Source: Bacteroidia bacterium (lineage in GTDB: Bacteria; Bacteroidota; Bacteroidia; 2-12-FULL-35-15). From it: a stretch of DNA of 64,000 nt. Positions 17,068 through 63,746 of the stretch are shown here, piece by piece; positions within the stretch are counted from its first letter, which is position 1, and every line of letters begins with the position of its first letter. Location: contig JAURXZ010000008.1 of NCBI GenBank assembly GCA_030654175.1, positions 1 through 64,000 of the forward strand, written 5' to 3'. The notes below the pieces were generated by a model. It ran no database searches, had not been told where the DNA came from, and saw only the letters and a program-made list of their open reading frames with translations. A program made the position numbers and the translations under genes.

Positions 17068-17121
17068 ATTTTTTATTGATTTATGTTTTTGAGAATTCAA
17101 ATATAATCAAAACTCTTACGT

Positions 17122-17217
17122 TGCGTTAGGGATTGCAGTGGAAATCCTTTTCTTTTTAGAAAAGATTGAAACGTAAAGCCCGCCCCTTTCTTTTTACGAA
17201 AGGGGAACGCCCAAATG
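17122..17217 (-). repeat. Two-module hairpin element, copy 1
   Basis: Read on the minus strand, it starts TTTGGGCGTT, forms a hairpin (CCCCTTTC / GAAAGGGG), continues CGGGCTTTACGTTTCAATC, then has a second A/T-rich hairpin, then GGATTTCCACTGCAATCC and CTAACGCA. It ends 2 nt from the stop codon of the TonB receptor gene. The same layout is found at 21899, 44587 and 52689. Confidence 0.8.
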
Positions 17218-21898: not shown

Positions 21899-21996
21899 TT
21901 TGGGCGTTCCAATTCTTGAAGGAGAATTGGCGGGCTTTCCGCTCCAATCTTTTTGTAAAGAACAAAAAGGATTTCCGCTGCAATCCCTAACGCAGC
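21899..21996 (+). repeat. Two-module hairpin element, copy 2
   Basis: TTTGGGCGTT, hairpin CCAATTCT...AGAATTGG (21909-21930), CGGGCTTTCCGCTCCAATC, hairpin CTTTTTGT...ACAAAAAG (21949-21969), GGATTTCCGCTGCAATCC, CTAACGCAGC. The arms of both hairpins differ from those in the other copies, yet pairing is kept. This is the key evidence that the structure, not the sequence, is conserved. Confidence 0.85.
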
Positions 21997-22184
21997 ATTA
22001 ACCAATAATAAAACATCCTGCAATTAATTGAAGGTCTTTAGGCTTTTGATTTAAATCTTCTGCGTTTACGGACTTTAGTAAAAATTAACAATCAAAATCA
22101 GGTATTTTACTTTAATCTGTGAATTGGCATCAATTTTTTTTGAATATTAATCGTAAATTCGCGCATTAAATTTAAAAACTGAAC

Positions 22185-28396: not shown

Positions 28397-28640
28397 AGAG
28401 TTGCGAAATTTTAAATAGATATTAATTACACGAAATTTCATGATGCCCTGAAAAGGCTATATATATATATATATATATCAACGTAGCGCATCGCCCTATG
28501 TTGAAAAAAAATTAATGAGTTCCGAAATTTTAAACAGGTATTAACTGCATTAAATTTCACTTTGCCCTGAAAGGGCTATATATACCAACGTAGGGCATCG
28601 CCCTACGAAGAAAGAAACAAAAAAATAGCCCTGAAAGGGC
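28397..28640 (+). repeat. Left REP array flanking the transposase
   Basis: Two tandem long units plus one half unit fill the spacer 28351-28653. Each full unit has a 5' part (GAGTT.CGAAATTTTAAA, then TATTAA), hairpin 1 (GCCCTGAAAGGGC) and hairpin 2 (CGTAGGGCATCGCCCTACG). Unit 1 (28445-28501) is degenerate and has a 20-nt TA run between the hairpins. Unit 2 is at 28564-28607. A lone hairpin 1 at 28626-28640 ends 13 nt before the transposase ATG. Confidence 0.8.
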
Positions 28641-28653
28641 GTAATAATAAAAC

Positions 28654-29106
28654 ATGTCTCAATCATTAACAAAAATATATACACATTTGGTTTTCAGTAC
28701 GAAATACAGGGAGTCAGTATTACATAAGGAGGTGCAAACTGAATTATATAGTTACTTAGGTGGAATATGTAAAAATTTAGAATGTTTTCCTATAAAAATA
28801 GGCGGGTATACCGATCATATCCATATCCTGTGTTTGCTATCAAAAAAAATAGCAGTTATGAAGCTCCTCGAAGAAGTAAAGAAAAATTCTTCAAAATGGA
28901 TTAAAACAAAAGGAGAAGAATTTGCAGGTTTTCATTGGCAGGATGGATACGGTGCCTTTTCTGTGAACCCCAGTGAAATTGATATAGTAGTGAGGTATAT
29001 CGAAAACCAGGAAGAGCACCACAAGAAAGTTTCATTTCAGGATGAATACCGCGCATTTTTAAAAAAGTATAAAGTGGATTACGATGAACGCTATGTTTGG
29101 GATTGA
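28654..29106 (+). CDS. IS200/REP-associated (Y1, HUH) transposase
   Basis: 150 residues, Y1 transposase family: YTHLVFSTKYRESVL at the start, HUH motif DHIHIL (His55 and His57), WQDGYGAFSV, and the catalytic Tyr115 in RYIENQEEHHKK. These enzymes nick single-stranded DNA at hairpins and move or copy them. The gene is intact. Palindromic repeats surround it on both sides, and the hairpin 1 motif stands just before its start, which suggests a RAYT-like relation in which the enzyme recognises the repeats. An ordinary IS200 copy is the alternative. Confidence 0.9.
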   Translation: MSQSLTKIYTHLVFSTKYRESVLHKEVQTELYSYLGGICKNLECFPIKIGGYTDHIHILCLLSKKIAVMKLLEEVKKNSSKWIKTKGEEFAGFHWQDGYGAFSVNPSEIDIVVRYIENQEEHHKKVSFQDEYRAFLKKYKVDYDERYVWD

Positions 29107-29153
29107 TATATTTTACCCTTACAGGGTAATAGGATTTTTGGGTAGTTTGTTTT

Positions 29154-29197
29154 CACAGGGCGATGCCCTGTGTTAGTGTATAAAGCCCTTTCAGGGC
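29154..29197 (-). repeat. Inverted REP unit just downstream of transposase
   Basis: CACAGGGCGATGCCCTGTG (29154-29172) and AGCCCTTTCAGGGC (29184-29197) are hairpin 2 and hairpin 1 in reverse order and orientation compared with the other units. A single reversed copy after the gene and direct copies before it resemble left/right ends of an IS200-type element. Confidence 0.7.
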
Positions 29198-29300
29198 AAA
29201 CTTGTATTTGCATTTAGCAAATGGTATTTAGCACCGGAAATAAATCCATCGTTTGTAAGGCTTTTGACTTCTTTGATATTAACTGATCGAAGTTTCAATT

Positions 29301-29720
29301 GCCCTGAAAGGGCTATATTACTGACGTAGGGCATCACCCTGCGAAAAAAATAATAAACACGAAATTAGCCCTGAAAGGCAATATATACTGACGTAGGGCA
29401 TCGCCCTGCGAAAAAAATAATAAACACGAAATTAGCCCTGAAAGGGCAATATAACTGACGTAGGGCACCACCCTGCGAAAAAAAATAATAAACACGAAAT
29501 TAGCCCTGAAAGGGCAGTATATACTAACGTAGGGCATCGCCCTACGAAAAAAACAGTAAACAAAAAATTAGCCCTGAAAGGGCAATATATACTAACGTAG
29601 GGCATCGCCCTACGAAAAAAACAGTAAACAAAAAATTAGCCCTGAAAGGGCTATATATACCAGCGTAGGGCATCGCCCTACGAAGAAAAAAACAAACAAA
29701 AAATTAGCCCTGAAAGGGCG
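29301..29720 (+). repeat. Right REP array, six full units and one half unit
   Basis: Full units at 29301-29343, 29367-29411, 29434-29478, 29502-29547, 29570-29614 and 29638-29683, spaced about 68 nt, then a half unit (hairpin 1 only) at 29706-29720. Each has AGCCCTGAAAGGGC, a short TATA spacer, then ACGTAGGGCATCGCCCTACGA. Between units are near-identical AAAAAAATAATAAACACGAAATT-type linkers. The gene-free stretch 29107-29790 consists of this array, the inverted unit, and the transposase relic. Confidence 0.85.
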
Positions 29721-29766
29721 TAATAAAACCAGGTCTCAATCATTAACAAAAATATACACCCATTTG
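29721..29766 (+). pseudogene. Relic of a second transposase copy (5' end only)
   Basis: After the last half unit the sequence follows the start of the intact transposase gene: GGTCTCAATCATTAACAAAA then ATATACACCCATTTG, against the first ~15 codons at 28654. The start codon ATG has become AGG, and similarity stops after about 45 nt. This shows that a second copy, with the same half-unit upstream, once stood at the right end of the array. Confidence 0.8.
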
Positions 29767-44546: not shown

Positions 44547-44586
44547 AATTTGTATGAAGCTAAATTCATGTTTATAACAGAGGCTG

Positions 44587-44684
44587 CTGCGTTAGGGATT
44601 GCAGCGTAAATCCTTTTCTTGTTTAAGAAAAGATTGAAGCGCAAAGCCCGCCACTTTCTTTTTAGAAAGGGGAACGCCCAAATG
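44587..44684 (-). repeat. Two-module hairpin element, copy 3
   Basis: Same layout as copies 1, 2 and 4, read on the minus strand. The hairpins here are CCCTTTC...GAAAGTG (imperfect) and ATCTTTTCTT...AAGAAAAGGAT. It lies between two genes of one ABC transporter operon, so it would be part of the mRNA. Confidence 0.8.
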
Positions 44685-52688: not shown

Positions 52689-52786
52689 CATTTGGGCGTT
52701 ACCCTTTCTTAAACAAGAAAGGGTCGGGCTTTACACTTCAATCTTTCCTAAAAAGGAAAGGATTTACGTTTCAATCCCTAACGCAG
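52689..52786 (+). repeat. Two-module hairpin element, copy 4
   Basis: CATTTGGGCGTT, hairpin ACCCTTTCTT...AAGAAAGGGT (52701-52724), CGGGCTTTACACTTCAATC, hairpin CTTTCC...GGAAAG (52743-52760), GGATTTACGTTTCAATCC, CTAACGCAG. It ends 8 nt before the nadE start codon. Confidence 0.85.
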
Positions 52787-52794
52787 TATTATCC

Positions 52795-63449: not shown

Positions 63450-63623
63450 AATAGTCGAAATTGGCGGAAGAGCTAATATTTTTAAGGTTATAGTTTGAAA
63501 TTATCTGTTTGATTCATCTTTTACAAAGCAAATTGAGCCATTAAAGAGTGATTTTAATCAAGAAAGACCTTCGTTTAGCTTTTTGTCCATTAATTGCCAA
63601 AAATAGTCTAAATTTACACAAAA

Positions 63624-63697
63624 CTTTAGGGGTGCCACAATACCGGCTGAGATAATACCCTCATACCTGATGCAGTTAATGCTGCCGTAGGAAAAAG
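63624..63697 (+). promoter_or_regulatory. TPP (thiamine pyrophosphate) riboswitch
   Basis: The thi-box pattern is complete: P1 start CTTT, AGGGGTGCC, GGCTGAGATAATACCC (with CTGAGA at 63647-63652), ACCTGATGCAGTTAATGC (63665-63682), CCGTAGGAAAAAG closing P1. It lies 50 nt upstream of thiS. The aptamer binds TPP and represses thiamine genes. The expression platform is unclear; the short CTCT...AGAG hairpin after it may take part. Confidence 0.93.
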
Positions 63698-63746
63698 AAG
63701 ATACTCTGTCCATAGAGCATTCCTGAAGTTTCAAAACAGTATAGGA

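Follow-up and report, generated by a model that had tools for sequence, protein, structure and literature searches.

Identity and anatomy of the repeated element

What is an element of about 98 bp that occurs four times within 64,000 nucleotides, and why do its hairpin arms differ from copy to copy and yet stay paired? This question is posed by the window, i.e. the whole stretch of that length from a Bacteroidia genome that was analysed here, and for which a sequence-only reading had proposed a dimer of one module that is selected for its structure. All four copies were found no more than 2 nt from the coordinates given in that reading, and the words that it regarded as shared, TTTGGGCGTT, CAATCCCTAACGCA and CGGGCTTTnCnnTnCAATC, are each present without mismatch in all of them; the differing hairpin arms do indeed remain paired. 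With one mismatch allowed, TTTGGGCGTT has 8 matches as compared to 6.05 by chance, and this short word alone is thus not above chance. For CGGGCTTTnCnnTnCAATC with up to three mismatches there are 10 matches versus 1.57 expected (maximum 5 in 100 shuffles), and eight of these ten are the two words of each of the four copies.

A cmscan of the window identified all four copies as Flavo-1 (RF01705), on the strand opposite to the one previously proposed and with scores that are all above the curated gathering score of 42 bits. Copy 1 (17120-17215, plus strand; RF01705 at 17120-17189, 55.9 bits) lies 4 nt past the stop codon of a gene for a TonB-dependent receptor, copy 2 occupies positions 21899-21996 of the minus strand (RF01705 at 21924-22001, 58.8 bits), copy 3 (44586-44682, plus strand; RF01705 at 44572-44657, 52.4 bits) has an ABC_tran gene on one side and an ABC2_membrane gene on the other, and copy 4 (52691-52787, minus strand; RF01705 at 52718-52787, 54.5 bits) ends 7 nt upstream of nadE, or 8 nt with the end assigned earlier. 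The end of a TonB gene, the interior of an ABC operon and the region upstream of nadE had all been named as sites before. R1, a covariance model that we built from 59 copies of the same genome, matches the four copies over these same intervals with 110.9, 101.4, 106.9 and 109 bits, respectively, each of them being itself part of the model. The core hairpin with its paired, covarying middle helix, the two words and the internal loops agree with Flavo-1 (PMC2864571), and the four sequences are full-length members of this family. Since their core is already in Rfam, the novelty that the sequence-only reading had implied is not supported. One difference concerns the base of the helix, which is CCG..CGG in the Rfam consensus and GGG..CCC in the window copies. 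The window also contains a TPP riboswitch (RF00059, 66.1 bits) at 63618-63710.

The complete unit is a three-way junction of about 95 nt on the Rfam strand. It consists of an outer stem (GCGTT/AACGC), a long hairpin that corresponds to the Rfam hairpin, and a third hairpin, in the order GCGTT-AGGGATTGNAGCGNAAATCC-hairpin B-GATTGNAGCGNAAAGCCCG-hairpin A-AACGCCCAAAT. In the long hairpin, two purine-rich internal loops flank a middle helix of two pairs. In copy 2, with all parts on the minus strand, the 5' arm of the outer stem (GCGTT, 21989-21993) pairs with its 3' arm (AACGC, 21904-21908), the word m1 (GGATTGCAGCGGAAATCC, 21969-21986) is one strand of the long imperfect helix and the word m2 (GATTGGAGCGGAAAGCCCG, 21931-21949) is the opposite one; hairpin B lies at 21950-21968 and hairpin A (CCAATTC...GAATTGG) at 21909-21930. 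The Rfam structure likewise pairs both repeated words across one long imperfect hairpin, and what had been taken for a dimer of one module is therefore a single helix seen twice. The Rfam model, which has 76 positions with unpaired ends, is truncated: it lacks both the outer stem and the third hairpin. In the genome analysed here, moreover, Flavo-1 is a high-copy dispersed element.

These features were studied in the genome from which the window is taken. Of its 134 RF01705 matches, we read the 99 that lie in the fetched stretches, leaving out the other 35, and 95 could be parsed; three were dropped due to a nested palindrome and one due to a damaged word. The outer stem is GCGTT/AACGC in 79 of the 95 copies, GCGTG/CACGC in seven and GCATG/CATGC in one, and has one departure in eight. 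The arms of hairpin B are Watson-Crick paired to 98.6% (73.6% upon shuffling), those of hairpin A to 79.5% versus 66.0% in 89 copies, with bulges not counted. Hairpin A exceeds 40 nt in 10 of the 95 copies, often through another long palindrome (ACCTCACCCC..GGGGTGAGGT). The long form was seen in L064, L070, L073, L077, L080, L082 and others, and the sister species carries the short form at one orthologous copy of such an element. A short palindrome (CCTTCGACAAG..CTCAGGATAAA) is nested within the Flavo-1 words at L066, L075, L084, L092, L100 and L332. Outside the outer stem, conservation is low past about 8 nt, save for weak signals near -14 to -16, where a word similar to CTTTCATTG occurs in 34 of the 95 copies as compared to 7 further upstream. 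A pattern search for half elements in about 0.55 Mb of this genome found 96 paired words. Of the six unpaired m2 words, four come from copies whose m1 contains a nested palindrome and two from one perfect palindrome; the two unpaired m1 words are those of damaged copies, and three head words look like chance. Thus, no split element was seen.

Covariation and strand of the junction

All arms of the junction covary. The middle helix is GC/GC in 52, AC/GT in 32 and GT/AC in 5 of the 95 copies, so that both pairs are Watson-Crick in 89 of them, as compared to a mean of 44 and a maximum of 62 in 10,000 shuffles. For an alignment, 59 of the 95 copies that are of similar length were used: 13 of 29 pairs show double changes, with 96 double-changed cells versus 26.4 upon shuffling, a number that was reached in none of 500 shuffles (7 to 29 in slid controls). 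This argues for the earlier proposal insofar as a folded strand has been selected or maintained; part of the variation in the arms may instead be due to gene conversion. The search with a covariance model that had been suggested along with this proposal was performed with R1, and it revealed matches both in the same genome and in other Bacteroidota. At E <= 0.1, R1 has 35 matches in the window and in 28 loci of other genomes, four of which are the window's own copies. In an alignment of these matches, which was fitted to the R1 model and whose two weakest members score 24 and 17 bits, double changes affect 25 of 28 pairs and, in the outer stem, all five pairs with 93.7% paired cells. The relatives contribute further outer stems, among them GCCTG/CAGGC and GCCTT/AAGGC. 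The same alignment contains a second class of Flavo-1 that is closer to the Rfam consensus (helix base of the CCG..CGG type) and in which the third hairpin is weaker.

Orthologous copies in the sister species G017 provide a second view on these changes. Ten of eleven pairs were compared; L273/L064 was left out as the sister copy could not be parsed. The mean identity within the element is 0.89 for orthologs, 0.84 for non-orthologous pairs between the two species and 0.80 for paralogs in the one genome. Differences in the middle helix are fully compensated in four of the ten orthologous pairs (L279, L281, L288 and L293); at L286 this holds for one of its base pairs while the other is broken, and at L291 the copy in the genome of the window has one broken pair. 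Had the copies merely been a recent transposed sequence, the structural claim would have lost its ground, and one half of this objection is borne out: the copies are indeed dispersed mobile sequence. The compensated changes between orthologs, however, indicate that there is more to the pattern than descent from one transposed sequence. Hairpin B has been replaced as a whole in three of the ten pairs (L279, L288 and L291), suggesting that gene conversion is probably active in addition to selection on the fold.

Which strand folds? Departures from Watson-Crick pairing on the Rfam strand are G.T in 90 cases and A.C in 26, and the structured strand is therefore most likely that of Rfam and not the one that the sequence-only reading had chosen. 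We regard this excess as suggestive rather than as a proof, as the copies counted are related to each other. By part, hairpin B has 43 G.T versus 4 A.C, and 27 of these 43 G.T are probably one loop-side pair in the 27 copies that share the commonest hairpin sequence; hairpin A has 36 versus 19. Without both hairpins, the test gives 11 versus 3 and is weak (p 0.057). Folding energy does not choose the strand, since on either strand two of the four copies have the junction as their RNA fold of minimum free energy, namely copies 1 and 4 when the Rfam strand is folded and copies 3 and 4 when the opposite one is. The RNA folding z-scores of copies 1 to 4 are -2.7, -3.1, -1.4 and -4.5 on the Rfam strand, and -2.1, -1.8, -1.6 and -3.5 on the opposite strand. 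When copies 1 and 2 were folded with DNA parameters, the junction was obtained on the Rfam strand for copy 2 and on both strands for copy 1.

Dispersal through the genome and carriage of some copies by MITEs

The family is dispersed through the genome. Of the 134 RF01705 matches, 130 are above the cut-off, and there are at least 150 copies, as the full model R1 matched all 150 candidates that were scored. Among 41 genomes (this one and 40 relatives), RF01705 is found at E <= 0.001 in 25 and above the cut-off in 19; in the phylum, R1 matches at E <= 1e-6 in at least 41 of 296 genomes, this one included, with 14 candidates per genome scored. Nearly all copies that were read are intergenic, with 96 of the 99 not being within any open reading frame of at least 80 codons, and they have no orientation bias towards the neighbouring genes (34 versus 28 co-directional). 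Convergent gaps are in excess, as they make up 27 of the 90 gaps that hold a copy and 28 of the 185 that do not (p 0.006), and there is a deficit of divergent ones (9 of 90 versus 38 of 185, p 0.04). Of the neighbouring copies at distances below 5 kb, 28 of 33 pairs are inverted, as compared to 39 of 84 at larger distances, perhaps because close direct repeats are deleted.

Comparison with relatives revealed empty sites. Upstream of the orthologous gene at site 44586 (copy 3), there is no copy in any of the 28 genus members that have this gene, and copy 2 at site 21899 is absent from all 27 genus members covered; at both sites, two of 30 genus members are without the gene. No match was found upstream of nadE (copy 4) in the 78 relatives of mixed taxonomy that are covered. 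Three of the four window sites are thus empty in all covered relatives; the fourth, that of copy 1, is common to the sister species. The segments of G017 are 86-94% identical and share copy 1 and ten other examined positions, although these regions were chosen for holding copies and the shared positions hence give no rate. Four copies (L064, L077) are missing in G017, where one site is clean, one has a remnant and two hold other sequence. Conversely, at L297/L070 a copy in the sister faces a remnant in the genome of the window, and at L280/L098 the same element has been inverted in place between the two species.

At the clean site of G017 a whole unit of about 215 bp is absent, and the inserted unit is therefore larger than Flavo-1. 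Indeed, there are complete MITE units that are bounded by inverted ends of the CTGAGTTCGAT type, and some copies lie within a MITE of about 120 bp with such ends. At L334, a unit of 213 bp with terminal inverted repeats (TIRs) has CTTAAAAAT on both sides, i.e. a target duplication of 9 bp, where a random pair of 9-nt words matches by chance in 6 of 400,000 cases; such a duplication is evident in one of the seven TIR-bounded units that were read. The 119-bp unit at L331 is the MITE of L334 without the junction. The MITE unit is accordingly polymorphic for presence and absence, missing as a whole at one G017 site and lacking the junction in the paralogous unit L331. Clear TIRs bound the junction-bearing units L332, L334 and L335 (208-257 bp). 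L329, L330 and L333 represent a second MITE, about 220 bp long, that shares these ends but has other hairpins inside (CAACCACGGTCTGAAGACCGTGGTTG).

The three junction-bearing units thus resemble MITEs in their size, their inverted ends and, in one case, the target duplication. In contrast, the junction alone has neither TIR nor duplication: in 95 copies no target duplication was detected at its own ends, the best z of 3.5 over many offset tests being taken as nothing. Junctions that lack MITE flanks are found as well. MITE-like flanks that exceed the 95% control level are present on the 5' side in 31, on the 3' side in 34, on at least one side in 52 and on both sides in 13 of the 95 copies, as judged with a consensus that was composed from the better copies, themselves part of the test; in the nine-copy GCGTG subfamily the flanks are at control level without a MITE-like signal. 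With both flanks MITE-like in only 13 copies and the GCGTG subfamily lacking the signal, the MITE is not the sole vehicle. Carriage by MITEs explains part of the copies: for some it is directly visible, for others it may be deduced from their flanks. A parent transposase was not found: 68 TIR-like sites (up to two mismatches) form seven facing pairs with spacings of 102-240 bp, there being no pair at 241 bp to 4 kb, and in the sequence of this genome that was searched no facing pair encloses a gene and no autonomous transposon with TIRs of the CTGAGTTCGAT type was found.

High copy number, intergenic position, hairpins and junction ends without target duplication are also what would be expected of an element of the REP kind, in which a Y1/HUH transposase (a RAYT or IS200/605 relative) recognises and spreads the folded single strand and competence for transposition keeps the covariation. 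REP/BIME sequences with their RAYTs, as far as the available part of the source describes them (PMC3733652), share the first three of these properties, and the genome has five Y1_Tnp matches, three of them strong genes. However, none of these five loci adjoins a copy, and among 34 Y1_Tnp loci that were fetched as a subset of the matches, only two have a copy within 1.5 kb, at 1.4 kb and about 190 bp. Moreover, three genomes with the family (G033 with 27 matches, G039 with 9 and G005 with 5) have no Y1_Tnp match, and tags at the copy ends are rare (GTAG in 1, CGTC in 2 of 95). Flavo-1 differs from the REP systems, as described in that part of the source (PMC3733652), in having no tag and no regular RAYT neighbour and in being present without a Y1_Tnp match; no RAYT gene flanked by a Flavo-1 repeat was found among the Y1_Tnp loci that were fetched from this genome and its relatives. 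The neighbourhood and co-occurrence tests do not support RAYT as the main route, and we regard mobilisation of this kind as unlikely. The Y1_Tnp of the window has its own unrelated palindrome array: the RAYT-like gene (28654-29106) lies within repeats of GCCCTGAAAGGGC and TAGGGCATCGCCCTA at 28440-29740, and a copied start-of-gene fragment near 29727 is part of this locus, which is a REP-transposase locus unrelated to Flavo-1.

The junction on clostridial plasmids and the maintenance of the fold

When plasmids were searched by blastn for copy 2, the only ones to match were from Paraclostridium bifermentans (four records). A fifth P. bifermentans plasmid was found via a longer region, and three P. 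sordellii records match only a piece of 44 nt. The five plasmids carry eight junctions with R1 scores of 54.6-68 bits. On pHD0315_2-5, pHD0315_2-6 and unnamed4 of DSM 14991, two junctions in opposite orientation flank an amidase gene, at a distance of 2.2-2.9 kb from each other; the other two plasmids have one junction each in the stretches searched. pHD0315_2-5 was searched as a whole, and both of its junctions are in paralogous regions with 70.5% identity over 624 nt. Among the eight junctions, the middle helix is G-C/T.G in four, G-C/T-A in one, A-T/T-A in two and mismatched in one, and it differs between paired copies by compensated changes. The outer stem is GAGTT/AACTC in six of the eight and has one departure in the other two.

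The first plasmid copy is embedded in a region of about 850 nt (L378:2045-2890 in NZ_CP094938.1; homologues L377, L379, L381 and L382) that is 76-79% identical between the plasmids and apparently noncoding, as there is no open reading frame of 60 codons. The region folds strongly (z -7.2, 20 shuffles), with a contribution of two strong hairpins near its 3' end. Downstream of the junction and on the same strand, i.e. the Rfam strand, it has one terminator-like site (0.4 expected); promoter-like sites are not in excess. That the junction precedes a terminator-like hairpin when the Rfam strand is read favours a role as RNA. In the consensus fold of the region, 13 of 208 pairs are double-changed, mostly in the 3' hairpins, and the covariation term is slightly unfavourable (+0.64). 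This fold does not contain the junction, and the plasmid junction thus rests on the model scores. ROOL and GOLLD are large ornate RNAs of a similar size. The plasmid region is like them in its strong folding, but it matches neither Rfam model, and Flavo-1 was the only family above the cut-off in a cmscan. The region is apparently undescribed.

Most of the 35 viral contigs with a word match that were searched are without the junction: five reach E <= 0.01 with the model, including one weak match. A pattern for the plasmid-type junction found no viral contig, the phage records searched gave no match to the junction, and a class I query had no match in plasmids. In the viral contig L380, the junction adjoins a GC-rich stretch (L380:2600-3260) with a folding z of -4.6 (20 shuffles) that is overlapped by an open reading frame of 167 codons on the other strand.

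Our preferred explanation, with a probability of about 0.55, is that Flavo-1, a dispersed three-way junction that is in part cargo of MITEs, folds as RNA and that its fold is kept by an interaction at the RNA level. In the genome of the window, at least part of the spread of the junction would be due to its carriage by short TIR-bounded MITEs, which may be moved by a transposase acting in trans. An inserted copy would then be read through within neighbouring transcripts and fold as RNA, and this fold may be kept through an interaction that matters to the element or to the host. The most likely partner would be a protein that binds the conserved GNA/GNA internal loops, and gene conversion between copies may help to keep the fold. 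A tentative extension, for which we see less reason, is that the junction is a portable RNA domain. It would be part of large structured RNAs that belong to mobile elements, namely the plasmid RNA of about 850 nt, of which a plasmid has one copy or two inverted ones, and possibly the viral GC-rich stretch. MITEs would have captured it separately and amplified it to at least 150 copies per genome in Bacteroidota, where it would still bind the same kind of partner.

Could the covariation have arisen without selection? Template switching or ectopic gene conversion might keep the palindromes perfect in otherwise inert copies. The wholesale exchanges of hairpin B between orthologs, the inversion in place at L280/L098, the existence of a perfect m2-hairpin-m2 palindrome (L099), and the fact that non-orthologous pairs between the sister species are nearly as alike as orthologous ones are all in line with this idea. 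However, next to the compensated middle helix the mismatched purines have persisted; such mismatches would be lost upon template switching, which is thereby disfavoured. Moreover, the middle helix is double-changed in other families of the phylum as well as between the paired clostridial plasmid copies. We therefore consider unselected covariation doubtful. That the copies stabilise or terminate transcripts between convergent genes, as a cis-acting mRNA 3' end or an insulator, would fit their enrichment in convergent and depletion in divergent gaps, a bias that is however also expected from the avoidance of promoters by any insertion. As there is neither an orientation bias nor a T-rich stretch directly 3' of the junction on the Rfam strand, such a role appears improbable.

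The remaining possibility, a family of independent trans-acting sRNA genes, corresponds to the Rfam type ("Gene; sRNA") and to the original description (Weinberg et al. 2010, PMC2864571), which lists Flavo-1 of Bacteroidetes as probably an RNA but not a cis-regulatory one ("RNA? y, cis-reg? n" in Table 1). Yet there are at least 150 copies in one genome, in both orientations relative to genes; the flanks beyond about 8 nt are without strong conservation, and the weak signals in a third of the copies are MITE remnants. Independent sRNA genes are thus very improbable. In F. psychrophilum, Flavo-1 matches are found alike in sense and antisense of transcribed regions and many are outside of them, and the part of that study available proposes no function (PMC9723704). 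This indistinct distribution weakens the reading of Flavo-1 as an RNA that we prefer. In its available part, a review names Flavo-1 without a function (PMC9029176). In the part of the literature that was searched, neither the junction nor the MITE vehicle nor the plasmid region was found to be described.

Flavo-1 has been on record as a probable RNA since 2010 without a function, and a flavobacterial transcriptome study of 2021 gave no real clue. From our results, an extension of the Rfam model to include the closed junction seems warranted, Flavo-1 matches are better regarded as dispersed repeats than as sRNA genes, and the family appears to have a vehicle of mobile DNA. Finally, the junction in a conserved plasmid region of another phylum offers a low-copy and genetically simple place to study the role of the fold.
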